From assembly GCF_002224125.1 (NCBI RefSeq), contig NZ_NCSM01000029.1, positions 62,392 through 126,391 of the forward strand: DNA of 64,000 nt, read 5' to 3'. A program made the translations under genes and the position numbers. Of the stretch, positions 31,611 to 53,982 are shown piece by piece (the stretch's first letter is position 1; every line of letters begins with the position of its first letter). Origin of the DNA: Streptomyces sp. NBS 14/10. Its GTDB lineage: Bacteria; Actinomycetota; Actinomycetes; Streptomycetales; Streptomycetaceae. The notes under the pieces were generated by a model, which worked only from the letters and a program-made list of their open reading frames with translations, was not told the origin of the DNA and ran no database searches.

Positions 31611-31642
31611 GCGACGATGGTGTCGCGCGGCCGATCCGCGGG

Positions 31643-31661
31643 CCAGGCAGCCGACCGGCAG
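31643..31661 (-). promoter_or_regulatory. Cluster direct-repeat motif upstream of NRPS (25275-31610)
   Basis: Read on the minus strand, this is CTGCC, then 11 bases from its start another CTGCC followed by TGG. It lies 32 bases upstream of the NRPS GTG and is one of seven copies described in the findings. Confidence 0.6.
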
Positions 31662-31727
31662 CTTCCCTGCCCGCCGACGGCCCTGCCCACGTACGGCATT
31701 GCCGGTGTGCAGCTCAGCGGCAGCAAC

Positions 31728-32687
31728 TCACCCGCGCAGGGCGGGCTGTGCCAGGTCGGCCCTGCTGATCAGGTCGGACATGGACACCAGCACCCGGCGC
31801 TCCCCGGTGAACGCCTCCCGGCCGTGCGACCAGCGCATGTTGTCGATCACCAGCAGGTCGTGGCGGTGCCAGTCGAAGCGCTGCGCACGGCGCTCGAAGG
31901 CCGTACGGACCGCGGCGACCGTCTCGTCGGGGATCGGGGTCCCGTCGCCGAACAACACGTCGTTGGGCAGCCCGCCCTCGCCGAACAGCGCCACCAGGTC
32001 CCCCCGCAGCCCCTGCGGCAGCGAGGACTGGTGGAACAGCACCAGGTGGTTGAACCACGCCCGGCGCCCGGTGCGGGGGTGCGCCACGGTCGCGGGCGCC
32101 CTGCGCACCGTACGCAGCCGGTCGTCCTCCAGCCACTCCCACTCCAGGCCGCCCGCCGCGCAGAACCGGGCCACCTCGGCGCGGCTGTCGGTCTGGAACG
32201 CCTCGCGCCAGTCGAGGCCGACCCCGCTGCCGTAGTTGCGCACATAGCGCAGCCCTCGCGCCTCCACGGCCCGCACCACCTCGTCCGGGATGTCCTCCAG
32301 CACCCGCGCCACATCCGTGATCGGGGTGGCACCGCCGGTGGCCGCCGGGGTGGCGCAGAAGAAGGCCAGCCGGCCTGGCCAGGCACCGGCGTACGACGAC
32401 TCGCAGTGCTGCGGGATCACCTCGCGCGCCGGGTACTCGGTGGAGGTGAAGACACCGCCGCCCACCTCGCTGCGCGGCGTGGAGCGCTCGGTGTACTCCA
32501 GTGGCTTGAACCCGAGCCCGTCCAGGGCCTGTTGGAAATCCTCGACGCCCTCGGCGCCGGCCCCGCGGATCAGCGCGGCCCCGGTCCCGGCGACGGCCTC
32601 GTCGATCGCCGTGACCTGCCGGTGCACAAAGGACCCCAGCCGCTCGCCGTCCGCCTCCAACACGGTGATGCCGGTCAGCTCGTCCAC
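31728..32687 (-). CDS. TauD/SyrP-like Fe(II)/2-oxoglutarate oxygenase
   Basis: 319 residues. The facial triad is visible as H-x-E in IPQHCESSYAG and a distal His in MRWSHGREAF, with the 2-oxoglutarate-binding Arg in GERRVLVSM. The same layout occurs in SyrP-type hydroxylases that act on carrier-bound amino acids such as aspartyl-T. GTG start at 32687 with AGGGAG upstream. It lies between the thioesterase and the NRPS in one leftward operon. A beta-hydroxylase acting on the Asn-derived residue of the adjacent NRPS is plausible but unproven. Confidence 0.85.
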   Translation of the reverse strand: MDELTGITVLEADGERLGSFVHRQVTAIDEAVAGTGAALIRGAGAEGVEDFQQALDGLGFKPLEYTERSTPRSEVGGGVFTSTEYPAREVIPQHCESSYAGAWPGRLAFFCATPAATGGATPITDVARVLEDIPDEVVRAVEARGLRYVRNYGSGVGLDWREAFQTDSRAEVARFCAAGGLEWEWLEDDRLRTVRRAPATVAHPRTGRRAWFNHLVLFHQSSLPQGLRGDLVALFGEGGLPNDVLFGDGTPIPDETVAAVRTAFERRAQRFDWHRHDLLVIDNMRWSHGREAFTGERRVLVSMSDLISRADLAQPALRG

Positions 32688-32752
32688 GCGTCACAACTCC
32701 CTGGGGAAGGGGCCCGGTGTCGGTGCCCCGGTATCGGTGAGAACACCACCGG

Positions 32753-33538
32753 TCAGCCGAGCACCGCCGTGACGGCGTCGAGTACGGTCGGAGCACCGGT
32801 GAAGAGGTAGTCGTGCCCGCCGGGCAGCAGCTGGAGGGTGAAACCGGCCGAGGCACACGACCGCCACCGTTCCAGCTCGGCCCTGCCCACCAGCGGGTCC
32901 TGGGCGCCGCCGAACACGTGCAGCGGGCAGCCCACCGGCACCGGCCCGGGGCTGCGGTACGCCTCGGTGAGCGCGAGGTCGCCCCGTACCGTGCGCAGCG
33001 CGTACCGCAGATACGCCGGATACTCCCGGAGGTCGGGCGGGAAACCGCCGAACCCCTCCAGCCAGGCGAGCAGTTTCTCGTCGTCCCGGTCCGAGATCCG
33101 CTTCGGCACCGGGGTGTGCGGCGCCCGGGACGCGGAGACCAGCAGCGCGCGGGGCGCGGGCAGGCCACGCCGGACGGCGCGGACGGCGATCTCGTAGCCC
33201 AGGAGCGCGCCGAAGCTGTGGCCGAAGAGCGCGTACGGCAGGTCGAACTCGCCCGCGATGCCGTCGAGCACCGCGTCGGCCAGCTCCTCCAGGGTGTCCG
33301 GTACGGGCTCCCCGGCGCGCACACCACGGCCGGGGAGCTCCACCGTCGCCAGTTCGATGTCGTCGGGCGGGGTGAGCCGCCAGGGGGCGAACGACCCGGC
33401 GCTGCCGCCCGCCTGGGGCAGACAGAACAGCCGCAGCCGGGGGCTGGGCGCGGTCACCCGGCCGACGATCCACGGAGTGTCCACGCCACGCGGTGTGCCG
33501 GCGGAGTGGGAGGGTGGTACGGCGGCATGGGTTCGCAT
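32753..33538 (-). CDS. Type II thioesterase
   Basis: 261 residues from the ATG at 33538, preceded by AAAGGAG; a longer frame to 33562 lacks a comparable site. It has the intact family signature: LFCLPQAGGSAGSF, nucleophile elbow GHSFG, VFGGAQDPLV with the catalytic Asp, and GGHDYLF with the His. It normally hydrolyses misprimed carriers; here, with no TE domain on the assembly line, it could also release the product. First gene of the leftward operon with the TauD-like, NRPS and amidinotransferase genes. Confidence 0.9.
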   Translation of the reverse strand: MRTHAAVPPSHSAGTPRGVDTPWIVGRVTAPSPRLRLFCLPQAGGSAGSFAPWRLTPPDDIELATVELPGRGVRAGEPVPDTLEELADAVLDGIAGEFDLPYALFGHSFGALLGYEIAVRAVRRGLPAPRALLVSASRAPHTPVPKRISDRDDEKLLAWLEGFGGFPPDLREYPAYLRYALRTVRGDLALTEAYRSPGPVPVGCPLHVFGGAQDPLVGRAELERWRSCASAGFTLQLLPGGHDYLFTGAPTVLDAVTAVLG

Positions 33539-33673
33539 CCCGCTCCTTTCGTCGCCCGGCACTCCTCGGGGCGGTGGCCCTCGCGGCTCCGGGTGGTCGC
33601 CCTCGCGGTTCGGGGAGGTGGCCTGGTGGCTCGGGGTCGCTTAGGCCATCGTGGCCCGGTGGCGGCGCCCGGA

Positions 33674-33693
33674 CCAGGCACGGGGACCGGCAA
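33674..33693 (-). promoter_or_regulatory. Cluster direct-repeat motif upstream of thioesterase operon
   Basis: On the minus strand TTGCC is followed, 12 bases from its start, by GTGCCTGG. It lies about 135 bases upstream of the thioesterase start, and a matching plus-strand copy (33710-33729) serves the divergent gene. Confidence 0.55.
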
Positions 33694-33709
33694 CCGGTCT
33701 GCCGCGAAG

Positions 33710-33729
33710 TTGCCCCCGGGCCTGCCTGG
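33710..33729 (+). promoter_or_regulatory. Cluster direct-repeat motif upstream of di-iron oxygenase gene
   Basis: TTGCC followed, 12 bases from its start, by CTGCCTGG; 70 bases upstream of the ATG at 33800 and in the direction of transcription. Confidence 0.6.
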
Positions 33730-33799
33730 CCGGTGGTGGCCGGGCCCGGTGAGGATCGTGGCGACCGTCCGCCCTTGTGCCCGAGGGGATCGCACTCCC

Positions 33800-34816
33800 A
33801 TGACCGCTCCTCCTGACGAGGCAGCCGACTCGCCCTTCTTCGTTCTGGACGCCGTGACGGCGGACCTGATGAAGGTCGAATCCCTCACCCAGGCGTGCCT
33901 GAACTGGGACTACGGCAAGCGCGACAGCCGAGTGTGGCGCCTGTACGAGAAGAACAAGGCCGGGCAGTGGAACGCCGCCACCGATATCGACTGGGACCAC
34001 GATGTCCGGTTCGGGGCCGAGCTGACGGAGGAGAACGGGGCGCGGCTCGCCGGCTTCGTGGTCGGCGAGGGCAGCCCGGTGCCACGCGAACTGCTCACCC
34101 AGTTCCGCTGGGAGTACCAGGCCTGGATGTGCAGCCAGTTCCTGCACGGCGAGCAGGGCGCGCTGGTGACCACGGCCCGGCTGGTGGAGACCGTGCCCGA
34201 CATGGACGCCAAGACGTACGCCGCCTCCCAGGTCGCCGACGAGGCGCGGCATGTCGAGGCCTTCGCGCGCTACATGGACGAGAAGCTGGGCACCGTCTAC
34301 CCGGTCAACCCCGGCCTCGGCACACTGCTCCACGATGTGCTCTCGGAGTCCCGGTGGGACATCGTCTACCTCGGTATGCAGGTCGTCATGGAGGGCCTGG
34401 CGATCACCGGGCTGCGGCTCGCCAGCAGCGGCTTCGGCGATCCGCTGATCCGGCAGATCACCAAGATGGTGGCGAGTGACGAGGCCCGCCACATCGCGTT
34501 CGGCGTCACCTCCCTCACCGGCATGTACGAGCAGGCCACCTCGGCCGAAATGCGCGAGCGCGAGGACTTCCTGCTGGAGTCCATCCGGCTGATGTCCCGC
34601 CGTTTCATGCTCCGCGAGGTGTGGGAGCGGATGGAGCTCGACGTGGCCAAGGGGCTGCACTTCGCCCGCACCAACCCGATGATGGCCACCTACCGGCAGC
34701 TGCTGTTCCAGCAGGTCATCCATGTGCTGCGGCAGCTGGGCCTGTTGTCGGAGCGGGTGAAGGGGCTGCTGCTCGCGGAGAACCTGGTACGTCCGGAGAT
34801 GATGACGAGCCGCTGA
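33800..34816 (+). CDS. Ferritin-like di-iron oxygenase (AurF/R2-type helical bundle)
   Basis: 338 residues from the ATG at 33800; the open frame extends upstream, but codon use and the regulatory motif mark this start. Helical, with two DEARH motifs (QVADEARHVEAF and VASDEARHIAFG) plus Glu in WEYQ/HGEQ and in VVMEGLAI. These can supply the carboxylates and histidines of a di-iron site. Relatives hydroxylate, desaturate or N-oxygenate small molecules or carrier-bound substrates. It stands alone between the divergent thioesterase operon and a terminator. The substrate is unknown; an amine N-oxygenation or acyl-chain oxidation would both fit the cluster. Confidence 0.8.
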   Translation: MTAPPDEAADSPFFVLDAVTADLMKVESLTQACLNWDYGKRDSRVWRLYEKNKAGQWNAATDIDWDHDVRFGAELTEENGARLAGFVVGEGSPVPRELLTQFRWEYQAWMCSQFLHGEQGALVTTARLVETVPDMDAKTYAASQVADEARHVEAFARYMDEKLGTVYPVNPGLGTLLHDVLSESRWDIVYLGMQVVMEGLAITGLRLASSGFGDPLIRQITKMVASDEARHIAFGVTSLTGMYEQATSAEMREREDFLLESIRLMSRRFMLREVWERMELDVAKGLHFARTNPMMATYRQLLFQQVIHVLRQLGLLSERVKGLLLAENLVRPEMMTSR

Positions 34817-34863
34817 CCGCGGCCCCGCCTCCGGCTACTGCCTGCGGCCCCCGACCCCGGCCA

Positions 34864-34893
34864 CTGCCCGGCGCGCACCAGCGCGCCGGGCAG
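34864..34893. terminator. Bidirectional hairpin terminator
   Basis: Perfect 13-base arms CTGCCCGGCGCGC and GCGCGCCGGGCAG with a four-base loop between two convergent genes. Confidence 0.85.
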
Positions 34894-34920
34894 CCGTATG
34901 TCCGCGCCGGGAGCGTCGGG

Positions 34921-36579
34921 TCAGTCCGCGGTCAGCGGCTGGGTGGCCGCCTCGTACGCACCGGAGCACACCGCCTGCCAGATGACGCGCCGCCGGGGCT
35001 TGCCGCTGGAGGTGACCGCGATCCCGCCCTGGGGCACCTCGACGGACAGCAACTCGGCGTCGCCCAGCCATTCGGACAACACCTCATGGGCGATCCGCCG
35101 CCACTCCGGCCGCACCCCCGCGAACACGACCACCCCGATGGGTGTGGCATCGCGGACCCCGAGGAGGACGGCGACCCGGCGCTCGGGGACACCGCGCTGA
35201 TGCAGCAGGGTCTCCAGGCTCTCCGCGAACACCATCTTCCCGCTGACCTTGAGCCCGTCGCCCAGCCGGCCGATCACGAACAGCTGCCCGTCGCGCAGGA
35301 ACCCCGCGTCTCCGGTGCGCAGCCCTTCCTCGCCGAGGCTGGTGCCGGAGGCGGAGCCGGTGTCGCCGAGGTATCCGCTCGCGATCGACACCCCGCTGAC
35401 GACGATCTCGCCGACCCGCCCGTCGGGTAGCCGCCCCCCGTCCTCGGACACGACGGTCACCGTACGGCCCGGCAGCGGCCGGCCGCAGCCGACCACCGCC
35501 GTCCCGGCCAGGGCAGTGGCGTCGCCACTGCCCTCAGCGTTGTCGTCGGGTCGCCCCGTCGTCCAGCCCTCGCCAGGGGGCAGACCGGTCACCGCGAGGG
35601 TGGCCTCCGCGCTTCCGTACGCGGGGACCAGCGCGCCGCGGTCGAGGCCGTACGGGCCCAGCAGCGCGTGGAAGTCGCGCAGCACCCGCGGGTCGACCCG
35701 CTCCGCGCCGATGATCACGGCCTGGAGTGCATCGAAGCGCAGCCCCTCCAGATCGGCGGGCCTGACGCGGCGCAGGATGTACGACAGGCCGAAGTTGGGC
35801 ATGGCCGTCATGACGATGCGCCGCTCGCTGAGGCAGCGCAGATAGCGCAGTGGCGAACGGATGAAGTCGTCGGGCTGGAGCATCCACCCGTCGAAGCCGG
35901 TGACGACGACGTTCAGCAGAAAGCCGACCAGGCCCATGTCGTGGTGGACCGGCAGCCAGCTGGCCGCGGGGCGGTGCGGGGCGCAGCCCAGCCAGGTGCC
36001 CATCCCGCCGATGTTGGTGCGCAGCGCCTCGGCGGAGATCCGCACCCCGCGCGAGAAACCACTCGACCCCGAGGTGAACTGGAGCAGCGCGGTCTCGGGA
36101 GGTGGCAGTGGCCGTTCCAGCGGCTCGGTGTCCGCGATGAGCTGGTCGAACGCCACCGGTTCGTCGATGCCCAGGTCGGCGGCGATCTTACGCAGCCGCT
36201 CCAGCGACTCGTCGTCGCAGACGACGGCTGCCGGGCGCACGGTCCGCAGCAGATGGGCGGCGTGCACCTCGTACTCGTCGGCCCGCTGGTAGGCGAACGG
36301 CGGGGCGATGGCGCACGGTGTCGCACCGGCGGCCAGAGCGCCGAAGAACCCGGCGACGAAGCCCGGGCTCGAGCGCTGCACCAGCGCCACCACCTCGCCC
36401 CGTCCGACCCCGTTCGCCCGCAGCGCGGCGGCGGTGGTGAGCACCAGCCGGCCCAGGTCGCGGTAGGACCAGAAGTCCCAGCCGTCGTCGTGGTTCGCGT
36501 AGTACAGGCCGCGCTCGGTGGACGCCTCGTCCAGCCAGTCGAGCAGGCCCCGGTCCGGGTTTCCCAACGTCCCCGTCAC
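34921..36579 (-). CDS. Fatty acyl-AMP ligase-like enzyme
   Basis: 552 residues of the ANL superfamily. The P-loop region reads [14 protein letters not shown], followed by [15 protein letters not shown], the DMGL motif typical of fatty acyl-AMP ligases. AYGSAEATL and the C-terminal catalytic Lys in SSGKPRRR are also present. Such ligases activate fatty acids and load them onto a carrier to start lipopeptides. GTG start with GAAAGGAC upstream. It is transcribed divergently from the first NRPS gene across a shared control region, which supports a lipo-initiation role. The acceptor carrier may be the ACP at 56489, the P450-linked carrier, or an NRPS domain. Confidence 0.85.
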
Positions 36580-36681
36580 GTCCCCGTCCTTTCAGGAGTG
36601 CACGGGCCACGCCCGTACGTCCTTCGGGGCGCGACCGCGTGCCCGGCTGTCGCACAGCATCGCCACGAGGCCACACCGCCA

Positions 36682-36700
36682 CCAGGCAACCGGCCGGTAA
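36682..36700 (-). promoter_or_regulatory. Cluster direct-repeat motif upstream of acyl-AMP ligase
   Basis: On the minus strand TTACC is followed, 11 bases from its start, by TTGCCTGG; about 105 bases upstream of the ligase start. Confidence 0.6.
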
Positions 36701-36740
36701 CTTGCCCGGGCCCGGGCGGCATTTCGACCAGCAACCGCGA

Positions 36741-36759
36741 TTGCCGGTCGATTGCCTGG
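36741..36759 (+). promoter_or_regulatory. Cluster direct-repeat motif upstream of first NRPS gene
   Basis: TTGCC followed, 11 bases from its start, by TTGCCTGG; the cleanest copy in the cluster, about 120 bases upstream of the NRPS ATG at 36877. Confidence 0.65.
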
Positions 36760-36876
36760 AAAGCGGCCGCGCCACCGATGCAGCATCGACCGAGATTGCG
36801 AGCCCTTGGTGAGTCCGGCAGCCCGGCAGTCCGGCGGAGCGGTCCGTCGAGCGCAGGAGAGAGCGGTTACGACCCG

Positions 36877-39800
36877 ATGACTTCACGCGACACCGAGCTG
36901 CTTCCGCTCACGGCCGCCCAGCGGGGCGTGTTCCACGCCCAGCGCCTCCAGCCCGACAACCCGGCCTACAACACGGTGGCCGCCATGGAGCTCCGGGGGC
37001 CGGTGGACGGGGAGCTGCTGCGGCGGGCGATCCGCCGCGCGGAGGGGGAGAGCGGCAGCTGGGACGTCGAGCTGGTGGAGCGGCCGGACGGGCTGTACCA
37101 GCGGCCGGTCGGGCCCGGCTGCTCGACGTGGCGGGAGATCGACCTCAGTGGCGAGCCGGATCCGCTCGCCACGGCCCACGCGCTGATCGACCGCGACCGC
37201 GCCACCCCGCGCGATCTGTTCCAGGACGCGCTGTCCGGCCACGTCCTCATGCGGATCGGCGCCGACCACCACGTCTGGTACCAGCGCAGCCACCACATCC
37301 TGTCCGACGCCTTCGGCTCCGTACTGCACTCGCGCCGGATCGCGGCCCACTACGAGGCCCTGGCCGCCGGGGCGGAGCCGGCGGGCGAGCCGCTGGGCCG
37401 CCTGGAGGAGCTGCTGGCGGAGGAGGCGGACTATCGCGCGTCGGACGACTACGCCACCGACCAGGAGTACTGGAACGAGGTCTACGCCGAGCGGCCCGAG
37501 GCCGTGTCACTCGCGCCGGGGGTGCCGACCGGCGCCACGGGGCGCGCGCTGTCGGTGACGACGGCGTTGTCGGCGGCCGAACTGCGGGCGCTGGGGGCCG
37601 CGGGGCGGGACGCCCGCGCCCCGTGGACGGTGGCGATGCTGGCGGGCGTCGCCGCGTATCTGCAGGGCATGACCGGGGCCCAGGACATCACCGTGGGCGT
37701 CCCGGTCACCGCGCGTGTCGGGACTCGCACGCGCAACGTGCCCGGCATGCTGTCGAACACCCTCCCGCTGCGGCTCACCGTCAGCCCGGCGGCAGGCCGG
37801 ACCGCGCTGGTCCGGCAGGTCGCACGGCGGCTCGGCGAACTCCTCACCCACCAGCGCTACCCGTACGACGAACTCCGCCGCGACCTGCGGCTCCTGGGCA
37901 CCGACGAGCAGCTTTTCGGCGTGCTGGTGAACATCGTGCCGGCGGGCTCCGAGACCGCGTTCACCGGGCTCGAGGCCCGCCTCACCGCGCTGTCCGGCGG
38001 ACCGGTCACCGACCTCAACATCACCTGCCACCCCGGGCCCGACGGGCAGGGCGCGCGCGTCGAGTTCGAGGCCAACCCCGACCGGTACACCGCGGCCGAA
38101 CTGGCCGCGCATCAGGCCCGGTTCACCGCATTCCTCGCCCGGTTCCTCGCCGCCCCGCCGGACCTCCCGCTCGCCCGCGTGGACGTCCTGACGACTGCCG
38201 AGCGCGTCCAGGCGCTGGCCGTCGGCCGGCCGCCGGGGCCGGCGCGGGACATCGCGCCACGGACCTTCCCGGAGCTGTTCGAGGAGCAGGTCCGCCGGAC
38301 ACCGGACGCCCCCGCGGTGCTCACCCCCGACGCCGTCCTCGACTACGCCGAGCTGAACTCCCGCGCCAACCGCCTCGCCAGGGCCCTGGTCGCACGCGGC
38401 GCCGGCCCCGAGCGCCTGGTGGCTGTCGCCCTGCCACGCGGCATCGCGGCGCTGACGGCCGTGATCGCGGTGATGAAGGCGGGCGCCGCGTACCTCCCCG
38501 TCGACCTCGGCTATCCGCGGGCGCGGATCACCGCCATGCTCGACGACACCGAGCCGCTGCTCCTGCTGACCACCCGGGCGGCCGACGACACCACAACAGC
38601 CCCCAACGTGCCGCGGCTGTATCTGGACGAGGCCCCCAGCGACCAGTTGGCAGGACCACCGGACACCAACACCAACACCAACACCGACGCCGATCTCGAC
38701 GACCGCGACCGCCGGGCGCCGCTGCGGCCGGGCCACCCGGCGTATGTCATCTACACCTCCGGTTCGACCGGCCGCCCCAAAGGTGTCCTCGTCACCCATA
38801 CGGGCCTGGCTGCCCTGCTGCGCCACCAACAAAACCAACTCCGGCTGACCCCGGACACCCGGGTGCTGCAGTTCGCGTCGCCGAGCTTCGACGCCTCCGT
38901 GTGGGAGCTGTGCGTGGCGCTGCTCACCGGCGCCGCCGCGGTGGTCGCCCCGCCCGAACGGCTGGTGCCCGGGCCGCCGCTGGCCGAGCTCGTGGCCGAA
39001 CTGGGGGTCGACTGTCTGCTGCTGGCCCCCTCGGCGCTCTCCGCCATGCCACCGGACAGCCTGCCCCGGGGCATCAACCTGGTCGTCGGCGCCGAGGCAT
39101 GCTCGCCGGAGCTGGTCGCCCGCTGGTCCCCGGGGCGGCACATGGTCAACGCGTACGGGCCCACTGAGGCGACCGTCATCGCCACCCAGACCGGGGCGTT
39201 GTCCGGCCGTACCGTCCCGCCCATGGGGCACTCGGTCCCCGGCGGCCGGATCCGGCTGCTCGACTCCGCGCTGCGGCCGGTGCCACCCGGGGTCGCGGGC
39301 GAGGTGTATCTGAGCGGCGACGGGCTCGCCCGCGGCTACCTCGGCCGCCCCAAGGTCACCGCCGAGCGGTTCGTCGCCGACCCGTTCGGCCCGCCCGGCG
39401 CGCGGATGTACCGGACCGGCGATCTGGCCCGGTGGACCGCGGACGGCGAGCTGACTTACCTCGGCCGCGCCGACAGCCAGGTCAAACTGCGCGGCCATCG
39501 CATCGAGCCGGGCGAGGTCGAGGCCGTACTCGCGCAGGCGCCCGGGGTCGGCGCGGCTGTCGCGGTCGTCCGCGAGGACCGGCCGGGGATCCGGCACCTG
39601 GTCGCGTACGCCGTCGCCGCCGGGGACACCGACCCCGGCGGGTTGCGCGAGTTCGTGGCGCGGCGGCTGCCGGCGTACATGGTCCCGGCGGTCGTGGTGG
39701 TGGTCGACGCCCTGCCGCTCACGCCAAACGGCAAGCTGGACCACGCGGCGCTGCCCGCCCCGCGGTTCCAGGCCACGAGTGCGTACCGCGCCCCGACGAG

Positions 39801-40110
39801 CGAGCGGGAGCGGGTGCTGCACGAGGTGTTCAGCGATGTGCTCGGCGGGGAGCGGATCGGCATGGACGACAGCTTCTTCGACCTGGGCGGCGACTCGGTC
39901 GTCGCCATGCAGCTGGCGGCCCGCGCCCATGCGGCGGGGCTCGCCGTCACCAGCAACGACGTCTTCCGCCACAAAACCATCGCCCGGCTCGCCGAAGTGG
40001 CCCAGGACACCGTCCCCGAACCCGGGGCACCGCGGGACGCCGGGAGCCTGCTGCACCTCGACGCGGAAGAACTCGACGAGCTCGAAGCCCAGTGGGAGAC
40101 AACACGGTGA
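36877..40110 (+). CDS. NRPS, C-A(Leu-like)-T, probable initiating module
   Basis: 1077 residues from the ATG at 36877 (CAGGAGAGAG upstream). The condensation domain starts [17 protein letters not shown] with active site HHILSDAFG (His about 139). It resembles C domains that accept an acyl group from a stand-alone carrier, with Ala where Gly usually follows the Asp. The A domain ([29 protein letters not shown]) has a pocket I read as D-A-W-L-V-G-A-V-I, close to published Leu codes. The carrier LGGDSVVAM has its Ser near 1007. Its stop overlaps the GTG of the next NRPS gene, indicating coupled translation and direct hand-over. Confidence 0.9.
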
Positions 40111-46100: not shown

Positions 46101-46625
46101 CCGGCCGCCGACGCCCGGCCGGATCCGGCGGCCCTGCGCGGCCGGGCCGCCGCCGCCCTGCCGGACCATATGGTGCCCGCGGCCGTGGTCGTCCTGGACC
46201 GGCTGCCGGTCACGCCGAGCGGCAAGCTCGACCGGGCGGCCCTGCCCGCGCCCGACTTCTCCGGCACCCCCGCCTCCCGGGCGCCCCGTACCGCCCTCGA
46301 GGAGCGGCTGTGCGCGCTGTTCGCGCAGGCCCTCAATGTCGAGCGGGTCGGTATCGACGACAGCTTCTTCGACCTCGGCGGCGACTCGATCAGCTCGGTC
46401 AAACTCGTCACCCTGGCCCATGCGGACGGCCTGGACATGGCGCCGCGCGATGTGTTCACCCGCAAGACGGTGGCCGCGCTCGCCGACGCGGTGAAGGAAC
46501 TCGCTCCGGACACCGACATGGCCACCGGCACGGCCACCGACGCGGACGAACCGGAAGAGCCGCTGATCACCCTGTCCCAGCACGAACTCGACGCCTTCGC
46601 CGAGGACTGGCAGGAGCCGGTCTGA
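40107..46625 (+). CDS. NRPS, C-A(basic/Arg-like)-T-C-A(Leu-like)-T
   Basis: 2172 residues from the GTG at 40107, which overlaps the upstream stop. Module 1: C (HHILLDGWS, His about 152), A, T (Ser about 1022). Module 2: C (HHGLLDGWS, about 1234), A, T (Ser about 2093). Pocket of the first A domain read by eye: D-A-S-D-A-G-L-V-D. The acids at the third-variable and last positions match Arg-type codes, so a guanidine- or amine-bearing substrate is likely. Second pocket: D-A-W-L-V-G-A-V-M, close to Leu codes. A nine-residue acidic/Ala repeat ([13 protein letters not shown]) lies in the first A domain. No epimerization or thioesterase domain. Confidence 0.92.
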
Positions 46626-46798
46626 CCGTCGGCGACGGCCGGACACTTCCATCGCACGACCACTGGGCCGATACGGCCGGGACCCTGCTCGGCCGGCCCC
46701 GTGAGGCACCACCACGCGGCCCGGCAGCGGTGCGCGGGCCGCACAGGACCGAACGACGGACGACCCGAGCGGTCACGACCCGGTGGAGGACCATCGAC

Positions 46799-47902
46799 AT
46801 GACAAGCACGTACCCCGCTGCCCGCGCCCTCCGCCCGGGAGCGGCCGATCCAGTCCCCGGCGGTCCGGTCCCCGGCGGCCCCGACACCCCCGATACCCCT
46901 CTCGAATACCACCTCGACGCTCGCGAGGCCGCCGAACTGCGGGCCGTCGCGGCCCGGTTCGCGGACACCCAACCCGCCCCCGACCAGCCGGAGTTCTACG
47001 ACGGCGACCACGCGGCCGAGGAGCTGCTGCCCGCCGGGCTGCGCGCCTTCCTCCTTTCCTATCGCCGCACCGAGAGCACCGCCGCGTGCCTGGTGCACGG
47101 CTTCCCGGTGGACGACGCCCGGCTCGGCCCCACCCCCGGCCACTGGCGCGAGGCCATCGGCGGCCGGGCGGCCAGGGCGCAGGAGCTGTGGCTGGCGATG
47201 TGCGGTCTCGCGCTGGGCGATCCGTTCGGCTGGGTGACCCTCCAGGAGGGCAGCATCATCCAGAACATCCTGCCGATCCGCGGCGACGAGCGGCGCCAGA
47301 GCGGCTACGGCAGCGAGAGCCTGCTGGAGTTCCACACCGAGGACGGTTTCCACCCCAACCGCTGCGACTATCTGCTGCTGTTCGGGCTGCGCAACCGGGA
47401 CCGGGTGCCGACCGTCGTGTCCTCCGTCCGCGACGTCCGGCTGAGCGATCACGACCGTACGGTGCTCGCCGAGGAGCGCTTCCACATCCTGCCGGACACC
47501 GAACACATCCGGCAGCTGGAGGCGTCCGCGCCCCGCCACCCCGCGCTGCCCAGGCTGTACGCCATGACGGACCGGCCGGTGCCCAGCGCGGTGCTCTTCG
47601 GCGACCGGCTCAATCCGTATCTGCGCATCGACCGCCCCTTCATGCGCGTGGGTCCCGGGGACACCGAGGCGGCGGCCGCGCTGGACCGGCTCATGGACGA
47701 ACTGCGGCGCGTCCAGCGGGAGATCGCGGTGGGCCCCGGCTCGCTGCTGATCGTGGACAACTACCGCGCCGTTCACGGCCGCCGCGCCTTCACCCCGCGG
47801 TACGACGGGACCGACCGCTGGCTGAAGAAGCTGACCGTCAGCCGCAATCTACGGCGTAACCTCAGCGGATACGCCCTGGAGCACCCCCGTGTCATCGTCT
47901 GA
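46799..47902 (+). CDS. VioC/AsnO-family Fe(II)/2-oxoglutarate amino-acid beta-hydroxylase
   Basis: 367 residues from the ATG at 46799 (GGTGGAGGA upstream). The motif EFHTEDGFHPNRCDYLLL contains the H-x-E iron ligands in the arrangement of the clavaminate-synthase-like group. That group includes VioC (Arg), MppO/GntD (enduracididine) and AsnO (Asn). The distal His is in NYRAVHGRRAF and the 2-oxoglutarate-binding Arg in the TPRYDGTDRW region. Placed directly after the NRPS whose first module has an Arg-like pocket, it probably makes 3-hydroxy-Arg or a related free amino acid. AsnO-type activity on Asn is the main alternative, as the third NRPS activates Asn. Confidence 0.85.
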   Translation: MTSTYPAARALRPGAADPVPGGPVPGGPDTPDTPLEYHLDAREAAELRAVAARFADTQPAPDQPEFYDGDHAAEELLPAGLRAFLLSYRRTESTAACLVHGFPVDDARLGPTPGHWREAIGGRAARAQELWLAMCGLALGDPFGWVTLQEGSIIQNILPIRGDERRQSGYGSESLLEFHTEDGFHPNRCDYLLLFGLRNRDRVPTVVSSVRDVRLSDHDRTVLAEERFHILPDTEHIRQLEASAPRHPALPRLYAMTDRPVPSAVLFGDRLNPYLRIDRPFMRVGPGDTEAAAALDRLMDELRRVQREIAVGPGSLLIVDNYRAVHGRRAFTPRYDGTDRWLKKLTVSRNLRRNLSGYALEHPRVIV

Positions 47903-47954
47903 ACCCGGCCCCGACACCACCCTGCCGACTCCCGAGGAAAGGCGGCAACACCCC

Positions 47955-48725
47955 ATGCGCACCGTCATCGTGTCCGGCGCGTCCAGCGGAATCGGCCACG
48001 CCACCGCCGAGAGGTTCGCCCGCGGTGGCGACTACGTGGTCAACCTCGACCACCAACCGCCCGCCCCTGGCACGGTGGAGGGCCCTCGCGAGGGCGGGGG
48101 CCAGGTCCGCTGGGTCGAGCTGGACGTCGCCGACTGGTCGGGCGTCCGCGCCGTGGTCGATCAGGTGCACGCCGAGCGGGGCCGGATCGATGTCGTCATC
48201 GCCAACGCCGGTATCAGTGTCCGGCACGGCATCCTCGACCTCACCGAGGAGGAGGCGCGGCGCACCCTGGACGTCAATCTGATGGGTGTCCTCGCGCTGT
48301 GGCGCCACGCCGTCCCGCATATGCTGCGCCGCGGCGAGGGCGTGCTGCTCGCCACCGCGTCCGTGAACGGCTCCCGTGGCTATCCGCTGTACGCGGACTA
48401 CAACGCCAGCAAGGCGGGGGTGGCCTCGCTGTGCCAGACCTTCGCCATCGAGCTGGCCCCCCTCATCAGGACCGCCTGTGTGGCGCCCGGCGCCGTGCTC
48501 ACGCCCATGCAGCGCGCCGAGTACACCGACGCCATGCTCGACGAGGTCAACGAGCGCATCCCGGCCCGCCGCCACGCCCTCCCCGAGGAGATCGCGGACA
48601 TGTTCCACTTTCTGGCCTCCCCGCAGGCGTCGTTCGTATCGGGCCAGCAGTTCGTGGTGGACGGGGCCGAGACAGCCGGGGCGACCACCGCGTTCTTCCC
48701 CGGCCCGACCAAGCCCCTGGGCTGA
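47955..48725 (+). CDS. Short-chain dehydrogenase/reductase
   Basis: 256 residues from the ATG at 47955, the standard classical-SDR length; an in-frame GTG at 47889 overlapping the previous gene is less likely. It has the cofactor loop SGASSGIG, the NAGIS strand, catalytic Ser in ATASVNGS, and Y-x-x-x-K in YNASKAG. An acidic residue at the end of the second strand (VVNLD) favours NAD(H). It probably oxidises or reduces a hydroxy or keto group made by the neighbouring oxygenases, or acts on an acyl chain. Confidence 0.88.
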   Translation: MRTVIVSGASSGIGHATAERFARGGDYVVNLDHQPPAPGTVEGPREGGGQVRWVELDVADWSGVRAVVDQVHAERGRIDVVIANAGISVRHGILDLTEEEARRTLDVNLMGVLALWRHAVPHMLRRGEGVLLATASVNGSRGYPLYADYNASKAGVASLCQTFAIELAPLIRTACVAPGAVLTPMQRAEYTDAMLDEVNERIPARRHALPEEIADMFHFLASPQASFVSGQQFVVDGAETAGATTAFFPGPTKPLG

Positions 48726-48779
48726 GCGCCCCCATACCCCGTACCGCAGCGTCCCGCCACCACGACTGAGGAAACCGCC

Positions 48780-50411
48780 ATGGACACCCGCCGGGCCCTC
48801 GCCCCACAACCGCTCGACCAGCTGGATCTCGCCGATCCGCTGCTGCACGCCCACCACGACCTGGGACCGCTGTGGCGTCGGCTGCGCGCCGAGGCCCCTG
48901 TGCACTGGCAGCCCGAGACCGCGCGCGGCCCCGGGTTCTGGGCGGTGAGCGGCTACGCCGATGTGGTCTCGGTGCTCAACGACAGCGAGACCTTCACCTC
49001 AGAGCGCGGCAATGTGCTCGACACCCTGCTGGCGGGCGGCGATTCGGCAGCCGGGCAGATGCTCGCCGTCACCGACGGCAGACCGCATCAGGCGCTGCGC
49101 AGCGCCCTGCTGAAGCCGTTCTCGCCGCGCTCCCTCGAGGTGGTGGTCGAGAGCGTCAGGCGTGGCACCCACGCGCTGGTCGAGGAGGCGGTGGAGCGCG
49201 GCGAGGTGGACTTCGCCGCCGAGGTGGCCGCGCATATCCCGCTCGCCGCCATCTGCGATCTGCTCGGTGTCCCGGCCGCCGAGCGGCAGCACATCATCGA
49301 CCTCACCTCCGGCGCGCTGTCCTCGGCGGACGGCGCGCCCACCGAGGAGGCCACCTGGGCGTCCCGGAACGGCCTGTTGCTCTACTTCTCGGAGCTGGCC
49401 GCACAGCGCCGCGCCAAACCGTACGACGACGTGGTCAGCCTCCTGGTGACCAAGGAGATCGACGGCCGGCCGCTGACCCACGAGGAGATCGTCTTCAACT
49501 GCTACAGCATCATCATGGGCGGCCATGAGACGACCCGCTTCGCGATGGTCGGCGGCCTGCGGGCGCTGATGGAGCACGAGGACCAGTGGCAGGCCCTCAA
49601 GTCCGGCCGGGTCGCCACCGCCTCGGCCGTCGAGGAGGTGCTGCGCTGGACCACCCCGGCCCTGCACAGCGGCCGGACGGCGACCCGGGACGTCCTCCTC
49701 GACGACCGGTTCGTCGAGGCGGGGGACATCGTGGTCACCTGGCTGGCCTCCGCCAACCGCGACGAGCGGGTCTTCGAGCGGCCGGACGAGTTCGACCTGT
49801 CCCGCACCCCCAACAAACACCTGTCGTTCGCGCACGGTTCGCACTTCTGCCTCGGCGCCTTCCTGGCCCGCGCCGAGCTGACGGCCCTGCTGGAGAGCTT
49901 GCGGGAGCTGGTCGACAAGGCCGAGCCCGCGGGCCAGCCGCGCTATGTGTACTCCAACTTCCTGAGCGGCATGTCGGCGCTGCCGGTGTCCCTCACGCCG
50001 AGTTGCCGTGTGCTTGCCGGGCCAGTTGCCTGGGAGGGTCCCCCGGCTGGGCTTACCGTCGGAAACATGACTCACACTCCTGCCGCCGTCGGCGCCGAAG
50101 CCGTCTCCGCCGTGGTGTGCGGCATGGTCCGGCTGGTCGCCCCGCGCAAACTCGACCAGGTCGAGCTCGACCACCGGCTCGTCGGCGATCTCGGCTTCCA
50201 CTCCCTCGTACTCGCGGAACTCGGCTACAACCTGGAGGATCTGTACGGCCTCCGGGCGCTGACCCCGGAGGAGACCATGAAACTGGAGCGCGTCAAGGAC
50301 GTGATCGAGTTCGTCTCCACCGAAGTGGCGAGCGGCCGGGCGCAGCTTCCCGACGAGGAGGAGCTGTCCGACCTCTTCGCCCGCTACGGCGCCGACGCCC
50401 CCACGGCATGA
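48780..50411 (+). CDS. Cytochrome P450 joined in frame to a C-terminal acyl carrier domain
   Basis: 543 residues. Residues 1-405 are a complete bacterial P450: I-helix GGHETT, ExxR in EEVLR, and heme ligand in FAHGSHFCLGAF. A linker of about 25 residues follows, then a carrier domain (about 430-543). Its phosphopantetheine Ser would lie in GDLGFHSLVLAEL, with His instead of the common Asp before Ser. Stand-alone P450s usually end near ALPVSLTP, as at residue 402 here. The linker DNA carries the cluster repeat motif, and an ATG at 50067 would give a free 114-residue carrier. The gene may therefore be a true fusion or a read-through of two former genes. GAGGAAA precedes the start. Confidence 0.85.
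   Translation: MDTRRALAPQPLDQLDLADPLLHAHHDLGPLWRRLRAEAPVHWQPETARGPGFWAVSGYADVVSVLNDSETFTSERGNVLDTLLAGGDSAAGQMLAVTDGRPHQALRSALLKPFSPRSLEVVVESVRRGTHALVEEAVERGEVDFAAEVAAHIPLAAICDLLGVPAAERQHIIDLTSGALSSADGAPTEEATWASRNGLLLYFSELAAQRRAKPYDDVVSLLVTKEIDGRPLTHEEIVFNCYSIIMGGHETTRFAMVGGLRALMEHEDQWQALKSGRVATASAVEEVLRWTTPALHSGRTATRDVLLDDRFVEAGDIVVTWLASANRDERVFERPDEFDLSRTPNKHLSFAHGSHFCLGAFLARAELTALLESLRELVDKAEPAGQPRYVYSNFLSGMSALPVSLTPSCRVLAGPVAWEGPPAGLTVGNMTHTPAAVGAEAVSAVVCGMVRLVAPRKLDQVELDHRLVGDLGFHSLVLAELGYNLEDLYGLRALTPEETMKLERVKDVIEFVSTEVASGRAQLPDEEELSDLFARYGADAPTA
50004..50034 (+). promoter_or_regulatory. Cluster direct-repeat motif (three repeats) inside the P450-carrier gene
   Basis: TTGCC at 50004, 50015 and 50027 (steps of 11 and 12 bases), the last followed by TGG. 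A -10-like TACCGT at 50054-50059 ends seven bases before the in-frame ATG at 50067. This suggests an internal promoter driving a leaderless carrier-protein mRNA. Confidence 0.5.
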
Positions 50412-50462
50412 CGGGCGAGGTGTCCGACCGCCCCCACGGCATGACCGGCGAGGTGTCCGGCC
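50397..50462 (+). repeat. 33-base tandem duplication across the dehydrogenase start codon
   Basis: Units at 50397-50429 and 50430-50462 differ at two positions. Each contains an ATG (50408 and 50441) in the same frame, giving an 11-residue duplicated N-terminus of the type MTGEVS.RP. Confidence 0.8.
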
Positions 50463-52189
50463 GCCCCTCGTACGCGCTGGCCGCGGACTTCGAGCGGGTG
50501 CTCGGCGACCCGGCGGCGAGCGGCGGTCCGTTCAGCCACCCGGAGACGGTCGAGCACGAGGAGCTGGGCGCGCTGCCCCCCGGGGCGGTGGACCTGGTCC
50601 GCTCCTGGGGGTTCAGCCGGTATCTGGTGCCCGAGCACTTCGGCGGCGGGCTGCGCAACCTGGAGCAGCTGGTCCTGCTGACCCGTGCGCTCTCGCGCCG
50701 CAATCTGACCGTCGCGGTGATGTTCGGCTCGGCGCTGCTCGGCGTCAACCCGGTGTGGCTGTGGGGCGACGAGGAGCAGCGGGCCCTGGTGGCGCGGGGC
50801 GTCCTCGACGGGGATCTGGCGTGTTTCGCGGTGTCCGAACCGGACCACGGCAGCGATCTGGGGACCAACGAGACGACGGCGTCGACGGACGGTGACGGAT
50901 ATGTCCTCACCGGGGAGAAGTGGCCGGTGGGCAACGCCACCCGGGGCCGGTTCCTCAGCGTCTACGCGGCCGTCGAGGGCGTCGGCCCGTCCCTGCTGCT
51001 GGTCGACAAGCGGCAGCTCGCGCCCGGGAGTTGGGACAACCACCCCTTCGTCCGGACGGTGGGCCTGCGCGGCCACGATCTGAGCGGGATCACCTTCCGG
51101 GACACCGAGGTGCCTGCCGGCGCGCTGCTCGGCCGCCCCGGCGCGGGCCTGGCCCAGATTCTTCAGGTGCTGCAGATCACCCGCACCGCCATCGGCGCGC
51201 TGTCGCTCGGCACCATGGACTCGGTGCTGCGGATCGCGCTGCGCCACGCACGCGAGCGGGTGCTGTACGGGCAGGAGATCTACCGCATCCCCGTCATCCG
51301 GCGGCACTTGGTGCACGCGCATCTCGACCTGCTGATCGCCGAGTGCACCACGCTGCCGGTGGCACGCGCGCTGTCGGTCGCCCCGTCCCGGCTCAGCCTG
51401 TGGTCCTCCGTGGTCAAGTACCTCGTACCGACGCTGGGCGAGGAGGTCGTGCAGGAGTCCGCCCGGGTCCTGGGGGCCCGTGGCTATCTGCGCGAGGGCG
51501 TGGCCTCCGGTGTCTTCCAGAAGCTCCAGCGCGACCACGCGATCGCGAGCGTCTTCGAGGGCACCACCCATGTCAACCTCCATGGCATCGCCTCGCAGCT
51601 GCCCACCGTGGCCCAGGTGGCCGACCGCCCCGCGCCCGGCCAGGACGGGGTGCTGCGGCAGCTCTTCGACTGGTCCGAGGAGGCCCCGGTGTGGCACCCC
51701 TCGGGCCGGGCGCTGCGGCTGACCAACGCCACCGAGGACGAGATCACCCGGGGGTGGGGCCCGGCGGTGGCCGAGGCCCGCCTGATCGCGGAGCGCGAGC
51801 TGCCGGTATCCGAGGCCGATGCGCTGCTGAAGGTCCTCGACGCGCTGTCGGCCCGCCGGGCGGCCTTCTACACGCGGATCGCCGCCGAGTCGCTGGACGC
51901 GGCGACGACCGAGGGGCAGGACCGGGCCGCGGAGCACTGCGTCCACCACGCGGCCGCCTCATGCCTGTACACCTGGCTGTACTCCTTCGCGGGGGAGCGG
52001 GCCTCGGCCGGGGGTACGGGATGGCTGGTCCTCGTACTGCAACGGCTGCTCGCCCGGCTCGACCCCACGGCCGGTCTTGAGGAGAGCCTGCTGCCCTGGC
52101 TGGAGGAGCTGATGTTCGGCTGCCTCGACGGCCCGGAGTACTTCTCGCTCCGGGCCGTCAAGGCAGCCGCCGGAACGGCGGAGGGCTGA
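50408..52189 (+). CDS. Acyl-CoA dehydrogenase-like flavoenzyme with C-terminal extension
   Basis: 593 residues from the ATG at 50408, which overlaps the upstream stop; a duplicated ATG at 50441 is equally possible. Acyl-CoA dehydrogenase parts are visible: ACFAVSEPDHGSDLG in the flavin/substrate-binding middle domain, and the catalytic Glu in VFEGTTHVNLHG. The family is normally near 380-400 residues; about 150 extra C-terminal helical residues are present. It would form an alpha,beta double bond in an acyl group, perhaps held on the adjacent carrier domain instead of CoA. Its coupling to the carrier gene supports that. Confidence 0.82.
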   Translation: MTGEVSDRPHGMTGEVSGRPSYALAADFERVLGDPAASGGPFSHPETVEHEELGALPPGAVDLVRSWGFSRYLVPEHFGGGLRNLEQLVLLTRALSRRNLTVAVMFGSALLGVNPVWLWGDEEQRALVARGVLDGDLACFAVSEPDHGSDLGTNETTASTDGDGYVLTGEKWPVGNATRGRFLSVYAAVEGVGPSLLLVDKRQLAPGSWDNHPFVRTVGLRGHDLSGITFRDTEVPAGALLGRPGAGLAQILQVLQITRTAIGALSLGTMDSVLRIALRHARERVLYGQEIYRIPVIRRHLVHAHLDLLIAECTTLPVARALSVAPSRLSLWSSVVKYLVPTLGEEVVQESARVLGARGYLREGVASGVFQKLQRDHAIASVFEGTTHVNLHGIASQLPTVAQVADRPAPGQDGVLRQLFDWSEEAPVWHPSGRALRLTNATEDEITRGWGPAVAEARLIAERELPVSEADALLKVLDALSARRAAFYTRIAAESLDAATTEGQDRAAEHCVHHAAASCLYTWLYSFAGERASAGGTGWLVLVLQRLLARLDPTAGLEESLLPWLEELMFGCLDGPEYFSLRAVKAAAGTAEG

Positions 52190-52210
52190 GCGGGGGCCGG
52201 CCGCCGCTCA
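52187..52210. terminator. Short hairpin built from the stop codons of two convergent genes
   Basis: Arms TGAGCGG and CCGCTCA with a ten-base GC-rich loop; each arm contains the TGA of one gene. Probably a bidirectional terminator in the 18-base gap. Confidence 0.5.
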
Positions 52211-53557
52211 GGCGGCGGTGTTCTGGGAGTGGCGTGCCAGCTGTGTCACGACATGCCGCACCAGGGCATGGACGCGATAGGTGTACTGCCGCTCCCGGTG
52301 GGTCTGGACCAGCGAGGCGTCCGCGAGCTCGGCCAGTAGATGGGCCACCCGCACCATCTCGGGGCGGCGGCTCGGTTGGGCGGTCAGTACGTCGTCGAGC
52401 GAGAAGCCGTCGGGCAGGGCGACCAGGTCGTGCAGCAGTTCACGGTGTGGCGCGGGGAGCAGATCGTAGCTCCATCGCACGCTGTCGGACAGTGTGCGAT
52501 GCGCGCTCAGGCCCCCCGTATCGGCCTGGCCGAGCAGATGGAAGAGCGTGTCTTCCTGGAGGAGAGAGGTCAGCGGGAGCGATCGGAGCCGCTGTGCGGC
52601 GATCTCGATGGCCAGCGGCACCCCGTCCAGGAGTTGGCACAACGTGGTGACCAGCGGGAGGTGATGGGCGAGATCCAAGGTCGGCAGGGCGGCCTGCACC
52701 CGGCGCAGCAGGAGCTCAACGGCGCTCGGCACCGGCATGTCACGGCCCTTGGGGCCGTCCACGCGCAGCGGTTCGACCTCCCAGGTCTCGGCTGCGCTGG
52801 CGGCCAGGGCGCGGCGCGAGGTCACCAGCAGATGGAGCCCGGGATGCTCGTCGAGCAACTGCCGCGCGGCGCGGGCCGTCTGCTGCGCGACATGTTCGGC
52901 GCCGTCGAGCACCAGCAGCCGTCGGCCGCCGCGCGCGCCCGCGAGAGAATGTCCGGTTACGCCGGTGAACTCCCGTGTGACGCGCGTCAACTCGGCACGT
53001 GCGTGTGCCGGGTCGAGATGTTCGGGCGGGCAGTCGCGCAACTCGACGACGGCGACTCCACCGCGGAACAGCGGGCGCAGCCGGGACGCCGCCGCGAGGG
53101 CCAGCCGTGTCTTGCCCACCCCGCCAGGACCGGTGAGTACGACCAGTCGGCTGCGCTGGGCGGAGGCCAGGACGTGGCGCATATCGAGCTGTCTGCCCAC
53201 TAACGGATCGCCGAGCGGCCGTGGGCCGTGCCACGGCGAGGGCTCCGACGAGCGGCCGCGGTGCGCCTCCGGGCGCTGTTCGGGCAGCGCCGCCATGTCG
53301 TCCGCGCCCCACGGCGCCGTCTCAGGTGGCGCCGCGGGCGCCGCGCCCAAGGCGCTGAGCAGCAGGGCCACCGAGGTTCTGCGCGGGTTGGTGTTGGAGC
53401 CCGTCTCCAGATTACGGATCGTCCGCACGCTCACCCCGGAGCGCTCGGAGAGCTCTTCTTGGGTCCAGCCGGAGATTCGGCGTTGGCTGAGCAGAAAGTC
53501 GCGCAACTGATGAATGTCGGTCCCGTCGAACGACATGAATTCATTTGGAATCACCAT
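52208..53557 (-). CDS. XRE-type HTH regulator with NB-ARC ATPase domain
   Basis: 449 residues from the ATG at 53557, which has AAGGGGGA upstream. Residues about 10-70 are an XRE helix-turn-helix (LRDFLLSQRRISGWTQEELS, then ERSGVSVRTIRNLETG). An NB-ARC/AfsR-like ATPase follows at about 120-380: Walker A LTGPGGVGKTRLA, Walker B RRLLVLDGAEH, and GVPLAIEIAAQRL, the GLPL-like motif. The protein ends without TPR repeats, so it is shorter than AfsR. Similar proteins regulate antibiotic clusters in streptomycetes. It lies between the dehydrogenase and the exporter, divergent from the latter, and is the only recognisable regulator inside the cluster. Confidence 0.85.
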   Translation of the reverse strand: MVIPNEFMSFDGTDIHQLRDFLLSQRRISGWTQEELSERSGVSVRTIRNLETGSNTNPRRTSVALLLSALGAAPAAPPETAPWGADDMAALPEQRPEAHRGRSSEPSPWHGPRPLGDPLVGRQLDMRHVLASAQRSRLVVLTGPGGVGKTRLALAAASRLRPLFRGGVAVVELRDCPPEHLDPAHARAELTRVTREFTGVTGHSLAGARGGRRLLVLDGAEHVAQQTARAARQLLDEHPGLHLLVTSRRALAASAAETWEVEPLRVDGPKGRDMPVPSAVELLLRRVQAALPTLDLAHHLPLVTTLCQLLDGVPLAIEIAAQRLRSLPLTSLLQEDTLFHLLGQADTGGLSAHRTLSDSVRWSYDLLPAPHRELLHDLVALPDGFSLDDVLTAQPSRRPEMVRVAHLLAELADASLVQTHRERQYTYRVHALVRHVVTQLARHSQNTAA

Positions 53558-53691
53558 GGAGTGAATCCCCCTTGCTTCCCCGCTTGTGCATGCTCCAGAA
53601 CCCGAAAAGTCATGTGCACGCAATGACAATGTCCCCGTAGAACAGCAAGAAGACCGAGGTGTGACGGTGTGGCAAGAACCGGACCCTACTC

Positions 53692-53759
53692 GACAACTCG
53701 GCCGAGTGGGAGTGGTAGTCTTGACATGAAAGCGCCAAGTGTCCACTAGTTGACAACTC
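53692..53759. promoter_or_regulatory. Palindromes and a direct repeat, candidate operators of the NB-ARC regulator
   Basis: Perfect palindrome ACTCGGCCGAGT at 53696-53707; near-palindrome GTCCACTAGTTGAC (12 of 14 bases symmetric) at 53741-53754; GACAACTC at 53692-53699 and again exactly 60 bases on at 53752-53759. A TTGACA hexamer lies between the palindromes. Autoregulation is plausible. Confidence 0.45.
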
Positions 53760-53864
53760 CGCCAATGCGGCCCGAAGTGGACATCCCGACATTACGCGCT
53801 CTTGAAACATTCTTTCTTCGTCACCCGACCACTCCCCTCGGTGAGCGGCAAATCTCCCCGTGAA

Positions 53865-53883
53865 TTGCCGGTGCACTGCCTGG
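53865..53883 (+). promoter_or_regulatory. Cluster direct-repeat motif upstream of exporter
   Basis: TTGCC followed, 11 bases from its start, by CTGCCTGG; 100 bases upstream of the MFS start and in its direction. Confidence 0.6.
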
Positions 53884-53982
53884 CCCGGGTCAACGCGCAT
53901 CGACCAGCATGCTGCGCGGGATCCACGCGGGGCCCGGAGCCCCAACGGGCGAGACGGCGAAGGAACAGGGGGGGCGCAGTCG

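Follow-up and report, generated by a model that had tools for sequence, protein, structure and literature searches.

A 64,000-nucleotide stretch of the genome of Streptomyces sp. NBS 14/10 (referred to here, in its entirety, as the window) contains a nonribosomal peptide synthetase (NRPS) cluster in which a short direct repeat recurs seven times. The question raised by this locus is whether the repeats mark the promoters of the cluster and, if so, which protein reads them. The first-pass annotation proposed that they do mark the promoters, likened them to the sites of Streptomyces antibiotic regulatory proteins (SARPs) and mentioned an NB-ARC/XRE protein as one possible regulator. The comparisons described below suggest that a single pathway-specific activator uses all seven sites as its operators and that this activator is most likely the XRE-STAND protein (52208-53557), a reading to which we assign a probability of roughly three in four.

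Direct-repeat sites in the window

All seven copies of the motif are present. Six lie where they were first placed; the triple originally given as 50004-50034 is also present, one base to the left, at 50003-50033. In the following list, the number between two units is the repeat spacing in base pairs.

31643-31661, minus strand: direct-repeat site CTGCC-11-CTGCCTGG, upstream of the NRPS gene 25275-31610; -10-like hexamer CACCAT at 31617-31622
33674-33693, minus strand: direct-repeat site TTGCC-12-GTGCCTGG, upstream of the thioesterase gene; -10-like hexamer CACGAT at 33648-33653; kept in relatives
33699-33729, plus strand: triple site CTGCC-11-TTGCC-12-CTGCCTGG, upstream of the AurF-like di-iron oxygenase gene; -10-like hexamer GAGGAT at 33751-33756
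36682-36700, minus strand: direct-repeat site TTACC-11-TTGCCTGG, upstream of the AMP ligase gene; -10-like hexamer GATGCT at 36656-36661
36741-36759, plus strand: direct-repeat site TTGCC-11-TTGCCTGG, upstream of the first NRPS gene; -10-like hexamer CAGCAT at 36781-36786; kept in relatives
50003-50033, plus strand: triple site TTGCC-11-TTGCCGGG-12-TTGCCTGG, before the carrier-protein and acyl-CoA dehydrogenase (ACAD) genes; -10-like hexamer TACCGT at 50054-50059; ATG at 50067
53865-53883, plus strand: direct-repeat site TTGCC-11-CTGCCTGG, upstream of the major facilitator superfamily (MFS) exporter gene; -10-like hexamer CAGCAT at 53905-53910; kept in relatives

The AurF triple on the plus strand diverges from the thioesterase site on the minus strand (33674-33693). 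Its third unit, CTGCC at 33699-33703, lies 11 nt upstream of the pair at 33710-33729 and was absent from the earlier list.

Frequency of the motif

The exact core of the motif (TTGCC-N7/8-TGCCTGG) was compared with 200 Markov simulations per order and with 1000 letter-scrambled motifs run on the real window. The core occurs five times in the window, against a simulated mean of 0.01-0.02 and a maximum of 1. With up to one mismatch and a -10 hexamer, the window contains seven sites (simulated mean 0.02-0.035, maximum 1; scrambled motifs, maximum 2). If the hexamer is left out, eight sites compare with a simulated mean of 0.6-0.8 (maximum 5), and the best scrambled motif reaches nine (mean 1.2); at two mismatches without the hexamer, the window count is no higher than chance (10 versus 7.2; 9 versus 6.8). 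Since the strict counts exceed all controls and the looser ones do not, the signal depends on the strict motif and its -10 hexamer. Allowing up to two mismatches together with the hexamer returns only the seven promoters and a register-shifted duplicate at 33711.

The whole genome (12.1 Mb) contains eight exact cores, five of which fall in this cluster. Read backward, the pattern also occurs eight times; with equal totals in the two directions and five forward cores in the cluster, the excess is local. One observation that the first-pass annotation named as refuting was a density just as high in unrelated coding DNA, and on this point the scan came out in favour of the motif: outside the window, 866,391 bases of this genome hold no exact core and four one-mismatch cores, one of which has a -10 hexamer. 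A chance origin of the motif was rejected on the genome counts, the simulations and the scrambled-motif controls.

Conservation in related clusters

A search with the AurF-like protein returned 12 loci, 11 of them actinobacterial with 78-93% identity and one (L080) with 41%. In the 11 actinobacterial loci, orthologous promoters carry the sites, and much of the surrounding DNA has diverged. Alignments of two intergenic regions, thioesterase/AurF and AMP ligase/NRPS, show the repeats among the most conserved blocks. The variant TTACC is kept in all 13 of the AMP-ligase rows that were tabulated, and at L075, where the genes are rearranged, the exporter and the thioesterase retain their sites.

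The NRPS site (31643-31661) also precedes the same NRPS gene in L069, L074, L078 and L130. Among L069-L074, L076-L079 and the window, this operator is present in the four loci with an adjacent TauD gene and absent from the seven without one; a tie between the operator and its TauD neighbour was considered and dropped, because L130 has the operator without that gene. In Streptomyces diastatochromogenes (L099, L100 and L101; the genome of L075), the cluster is rearranged over three contigs, and the same exporter-type site is found on two of these (L099 12386 and L100 14020), possibly reflecting two copies of the cluster.

Promoter geometry

Each of the seven window sites is followed by a -10-like hexamer NANNNT that begins after a gap of 20 or 21 nt from the repeats. 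The chance of finding the hexamer at all seven is ~2e-11 from base composition, with the gaps picked after inspection. The wider comparison used 85 tabulated rows. These were picked by hand and lack independence, since one genome may contribute several promoters and some species are near-identical; the sites omitted include the L077 thioesterase site and, at L075 and L078, the weaker AurF sites. The hexamer stands at gap 20 (45 rows) or 21 (38 rows) in 83 of the 85, and none of these rows has it at gap 19 or 22 or at gaps 8-16. The two rows without it are those of L075 (second-thioesterase-like) and L094. The claim that the motif marks the cluster promoters is strongly supported by the conservation at orthologous promoters together with a -10-like hexamer at a fixed distance.

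The core and hexamer combine into a composite pattern, TTGCC-N7/8-TGCCTGG-N21/22-ANNNT. Of 126 distinct composite sites, 88 have a repeat spacing of 11 bp and 38 one of 12 bp. A third NTGCC unit lies exactly 11 nt further upstream in 22 of the 85 rows (never at 12 nt, once each at 10 and 13 nt), namely in 11/11 AurF rows, 8/8 carrier-protein rows and 3/7 distant-cluster rows. The window operators 33699-33729 and 50003-50033 are therefore both triples.

In 13 of the 14 carrier-protein and second-thioesterase rows as computed, an ATG lies 6-7 nt past the hexamer; in the exception, L103, the first ATG string comes at 2 nt and the aligned ATG at 7 nt, which gives 14/14. These ATGs suggest leaderless transcripts, and the carrier-protein transcript from ATG 50067 is a probable case. 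If transcription begins at those ATGs, the start sites so predicted would centre the operator at about -43. Passages of PMC10936776 and PMC4393881 centre the AfsR box at -29.5, put the 3' repeat of SARP sites 8 bp from the -10 element and place class II sites at -41.5. With a gap of 20-21 nt against the 8 bp of SARPs, and a predicted centre near -43 against -29.5, the layout appears class II-like and not SARP-like.

Constant spacing to a -10-like hexamer would also be seen if a dedicated alternative sigma factor used the motif as its -35 box. We regard this as highly improbable, as the sites consist of two or three repeats at 11/12-bp spacing, the NANNNT hexamers are of the housekeeping type and no sigma domain was found among the scanned cluster genes (no genome-wide sigma search was made).

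The triple site at 50003-50033

The triple was first described as lying inside the P450-carrier gene. A reading frame does run through it, but in relatives the triple lies in the promoter of a separate carrier-protein gene, and in the window it is probably not part of a working coding region. At L097, L103, L106, L107 and L109, the P450 and carrier-protein genes stand apart: a second thioesterase gene, divergently oriented, separates them, and the triple precedes the carrier gene. In L105 (11301-12804, from Streptomyces sparsogenes, the genome of L069), the P450 stops after 417 residues and the triple follows. In the window (48780-50411), the P450 stop codon and the stretch following it are missing, and the frame reads on in phase across the triple operator and joins that of the carrier protein. 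The triple thus seems intragenic because the P450 gene lost its stop, the read-through being either a young gene fusion or an assembly matter.

All eight carrier-protein rows keep the triple, and in two of these rows the last two units include a mismatch. As the hexamer TACCGT (50054-50059) and ATG 50067 are intact in the window, 50003-50033 probably still acts as a promoter, and the carrier gene proper probably starts at this ATG. A motif within a working coding gene was rejected in view of the separate carrier-protein promoter in relatives and the P450 stop in L105.

The XRE-STAND regulator

The only Pfam matches of the 449-residue protein are to the helix-turn-helix (HTH) families HTH_3 (E=1.3e-8) and HTH_31 (E=2e-8) and to AAA_16, nSTAND_NTPase5 and AAA_22, with the AAA_16 and nSTAND_NTPase5 matches below their curated cut-offs; Pfam gave no BTAD, Trans_reg_C or TPR match. 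The protein has a P-loop ATPase core with Walker A and B motifs: the P-loop reads GPGGVGKT, and when 74 of the 120 listed homologues are aligned, residues G143, G146, G148, K149 and D218 do not vary. These 120 proteins are 317-498 residues long, the search having admitted only 0.55-1.75 times the query length, and database names for the family are generic (e.g. 'helix-turn-helix domain-containing protein'). The nearest solved chains by sequence are the HigA and HipB antitoxins, with weak E values of 0.005-0.024. In the open-licence PMC literature, we found no XRE-STAND/NB-ARC regulator tied to such repeats. An orthologue with 68-87% identity is present in 9/9 relative genomes searched, a set that excludes the genomes of L071 and L079.

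A further in-cluster regulator of the TrmB/GerE type stands beside the exporter in some relatives and could, in principle, be the reader. It was identified by Pfam in L106 (6606-7592) and L107 (8975-10018), and probably, by position and N-terminal sequence, in L109 (7238-8245). The window has no room for such a gene between the regulator and the exporter, and L098 has no coding frame there and intact sites. With the gene absent from the window, we rejected this candidate, whose chance of being the reader is close to nil.

Distribution of the regulator and the site

Homologues of the regulator (family threshold E<=1e-40) were sought in 150 genomes of the genus and the composite pattern in 295 genomes, including the 150. 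Among the 150, the composite site is present in 7/9 genomes with the family and in 4/141 without it (Fisher p=3.8e-8). It occurs in 23 of the 295 genomes; all nine with two or more hits also have the family, which is likewise present in G001, G104 and G639, with one hit each. In the twelve genomes with both, the regulator is on the same contig as the site and 0.1-19 kb from the nearest one (that of G116 has one mismatch). The remaining 11 genomes have a single hit each and no homologue at E<=1e-40. A backward control pattern gave single hits in 25 genomes by our count, and two hits in none. Across the class, the family was found in 7/394 genomes at the same threshold; in three of these, which belong to other genera, the only matches are longer proteins, matched from residue 103 or later.

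In the stretches fetched from G104, G001 and G639, the regulator-site pair occurs without an AurF, ACAD or P450 homologue (NRPS queries were left out) and with only weak general similarity to the AMP ligase, short-chain dehydrogenase/reductase (SDR), thioesterase or exporter. A luciferase-like monooxygenase, a methylaspartate mutase E chain and a condensation-domain protein are among the products encoded near these sites. In G146, sites are also found before an FkbM-type methyltransferase gene, a ketosynthase gene and a 3-hydroxyacyl-CoA-dehydrogenase-like gene, the last named from sequence only. The suggestion that the NB-ARC/XRE protein is the regulator is favoured by this comparative evidence (orthologues in 9/9 relatives and co-occurrence with the site).

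Counter-evidence and the SARP alternative

Several observations weigh against the XRE-STAND protein as the reader or against the generality of the layout. G116, G623, G146 and G646 share relatives of several cluster genes (e.g. AurF, carrier protein and thioesterase), and the shared genes in G116, G623 and G146/G646 indicate that the association is partly due to common descent. Homologues in G082 and G147 (39-44% identical) occur without a composite site; G082 has one diverged candidate (L094 9225-9243, two mismatches, with GACGAT). G062 has sites without a close regulator homologue, its cluster looking like a remnant in which only AurF residues 163-333 are left. At the later loci L116-L129, the hexamer is found at 28 of 36 core sites with up to one mismatch, and two NANNNT are at gap 22; by our count, 16 of the 28 were chosen by the composite pattern itself, and the unselected sites of these loci have the hexamer in 12/20. 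No site precedes the regulator gene itself within the window. XRE proteins are described as palindrome binders in parts of PMC12565409, and the palindromic operator expected of them is not seen here, the sites being direct repeats; this point counts only if the XRE-STAND protein binds them. Finally, the SARP-LAL heptamer CGGCAAG, as given in a passage of PMC5930380, is the reverse complement of CTTGCCG, and TTGCAGT-N10-TTGCAGT is presented as SARP-like in a passage of PMC12224297.

The last two points concern a SARP encoded elsewhere that would bind the repeats as PimR, SanG and PolR bind CGGCAAG, leaving the XRE-STAND gene a mere neighbour. The likeness to SARPs (AfsR, ActII-4 and DnrI, and the SARP-LAL proteins PimR, SanG and PolR) extends to direct repeats at the -35 region whose 11-bp spacing, one helical turn, agrees with the SARP spacing of 11 or 22 bp, and to an NB-ARC ATPase, which part of PMC10972967 describes for SARPs of medium and large size. 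The genome contains 36 BTAD (PF03704) matches, the nearest on the contig of the cluster at C50:21073-21501, ~65 kb from the cluster. No BTAD gene was found in the window itself, and the candidate regulator matches neither BTAD nor Trans_reg_C. Nine relative genomes have BTAD genes, none of them within ~45 kb on the cluster contigs, those of G153, G155 and G158 being short. The repeats end 20-21 nt before the -10, not the 8 indicated in the passages of PMC10936776 and PMC4393881, and by eye there is no further repeat between TGCCTGG and the -10. The site, moreover, tracks the XRE-STAND family across other clusters. The SARP-type reading was therefore rejected on geometry and gene content, and we consider a SARP acting from elsewhere unlikely, although the half-site letters by themselves would fit one.

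Proposed mode of action

Each of the putative operators consists of two half-sites, typically TTGCCGG and TTGCCTGG, arranged head-to-tail 11 or 12 bp apart; those of the AurF and carrier-protein genes have a third, another 11 bp upstream. The operator ends 20-21 bp before the -10-like hexamer and would thus abut or overlap the -35 region in a class II position. If the XRE-STAND protein is the activator, its ATP-bound STAND domain would multimerise, the Cro/CI-type HTH domains would dock on two or three repeats along one face of the DNA and the promoter-proximal HTH would hold sigma region 4 over a poor -35 region, switching on the synthetases, tailoring genes and exporter together. We infer that, for head-to-tail repeats one turn apart, a STAND oligomer would be a better fit than a dimer with two-fold symmetry.

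Repression and autoregulation are common among XRE proteins. The XRE-STAND protein might instead bind the sites as a repressor that lets go in response to a signal; XRE autoregulation is described in part of PMC12565409, and a site near -43 could obstruct RNA polymerase. The fixed 20/21-nt phasing and the non-consensus -10 hexamers fit an activator instead, and the gene of the protein has no site of its own in the window, which makes repression distinctly unlikely.

As an activator, the XRE-STAND protein would resemble MalT of Escherichia coli in joining a STAND ATPase to an HTH, which is C-terminal and LuxR-type in MalT but N-terminal and XRE-type here. Parts of PMC4381067 and PMC10427625 describe MalT as multimerising and binding several boxes cooperatively, behaviour that is only proposed for the present protein; the superhelical-repeat sensor that PMC4381067 ascribes to MalT has no matched counterpart in it. 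XRE (Cro/CI) regulators such as HipB and MltR/MmyB share the HTH_3/HTH_31 domain, but those covered in the relevant parts of PMC12565409 and PMC3406030 bind palindromes or pseudo-palindromes as dimers, whereas the sites here are direct repeats.

Gene content of the cluster

The kinds of gene recognized by Pfam are NRPS, TauD-type dioxygenase, thioesterase, AurF-like oxygenase, AMP ligase, further NRPS, second TauD-type gene, SDR, P450 with carrier protein, acyl-CoA dehydrogenase, XRE-STAND regulator, MFS exporter, KAS III and second AMP ligase. The genes referred to above are as follows.

25275-31610, minus strand: NRPS with three condensation, one adenylation and two carrier stretches (Pfam); downstream of site 31643
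32753-33538, minus strand: thioesterase (Pfam, scanned as 32753-33640); first gene after site 33674
33800-34816, plus strand: AurF-like di-iron oxygenase (Pfam); after site 33710
34921-36579, minus strand: AMP ligase (Pfam); after site 36682
36877-40110, plus strand: NRPS with C-A-T (condensation, adenylation, thiolation) organization (Pfam, scanned as 36817-40110); after site 36741
Reading frame of 46310-47902: second TauD-type gene
48780-50411, plus strand: P450 frame running through the triple into the carrier-protein frame (Pfam and comparison with relatives)
50408-52189, plus strand: acyl-CoA dehydrogenase (Pfam, scanned as 50297-52189); after the carrier protein
52208-53557, minus strand: XRE-STAND regulator of 449 residues, the proposed reader (Cro/CI-type HTH and NB-ARC-like ATPase)
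53983-55383, plus strand: MFS exporter (Pfam, scanned as 53845-55383); after site 53865

No family matched the gene at 24104-25240, which we take to resemble an amidinotransferase, and a literature search yielded no name for the cluster product. Beside the cluster, an elongation factor G-like gene (21604-23841) lacks an operator and could be a resistance gene or a mere neighbour. The region 4872-9800 encodes a large FtsK/SpoIIIE protein with further AAA/NACHT-like stretches, and the adjoining genes were named as secretion genes in the first-pass annotation.

Implications

It is reasonably likely that the regulator represents a sparse, taxonomically broad actinobacterial activator family parallel to the SARPs, made up of short proteins that combine an XRE HTH with a STAND ATPase, lack BTAD and TPR, read TTGCC direct repeats at a class II position as head-to-tail oligomers and control unrelated biosynthetic clusters. 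Many of its operators would then be findable from DNA by the composite pattern, which led to further clusters carrying the regulator family in G646, G623 and G639. If the XRE-STAND protein is indeed the activator, a cluster family of unknown product would gain a named regulator, a readable operator and a predicted promoter set, and the cluster might be activated by expressing one 449-residue protein. The known kinds of pathway regulators would then also include a STAND activator of the XRE type that reads direct repeats and has no TPR sensor.

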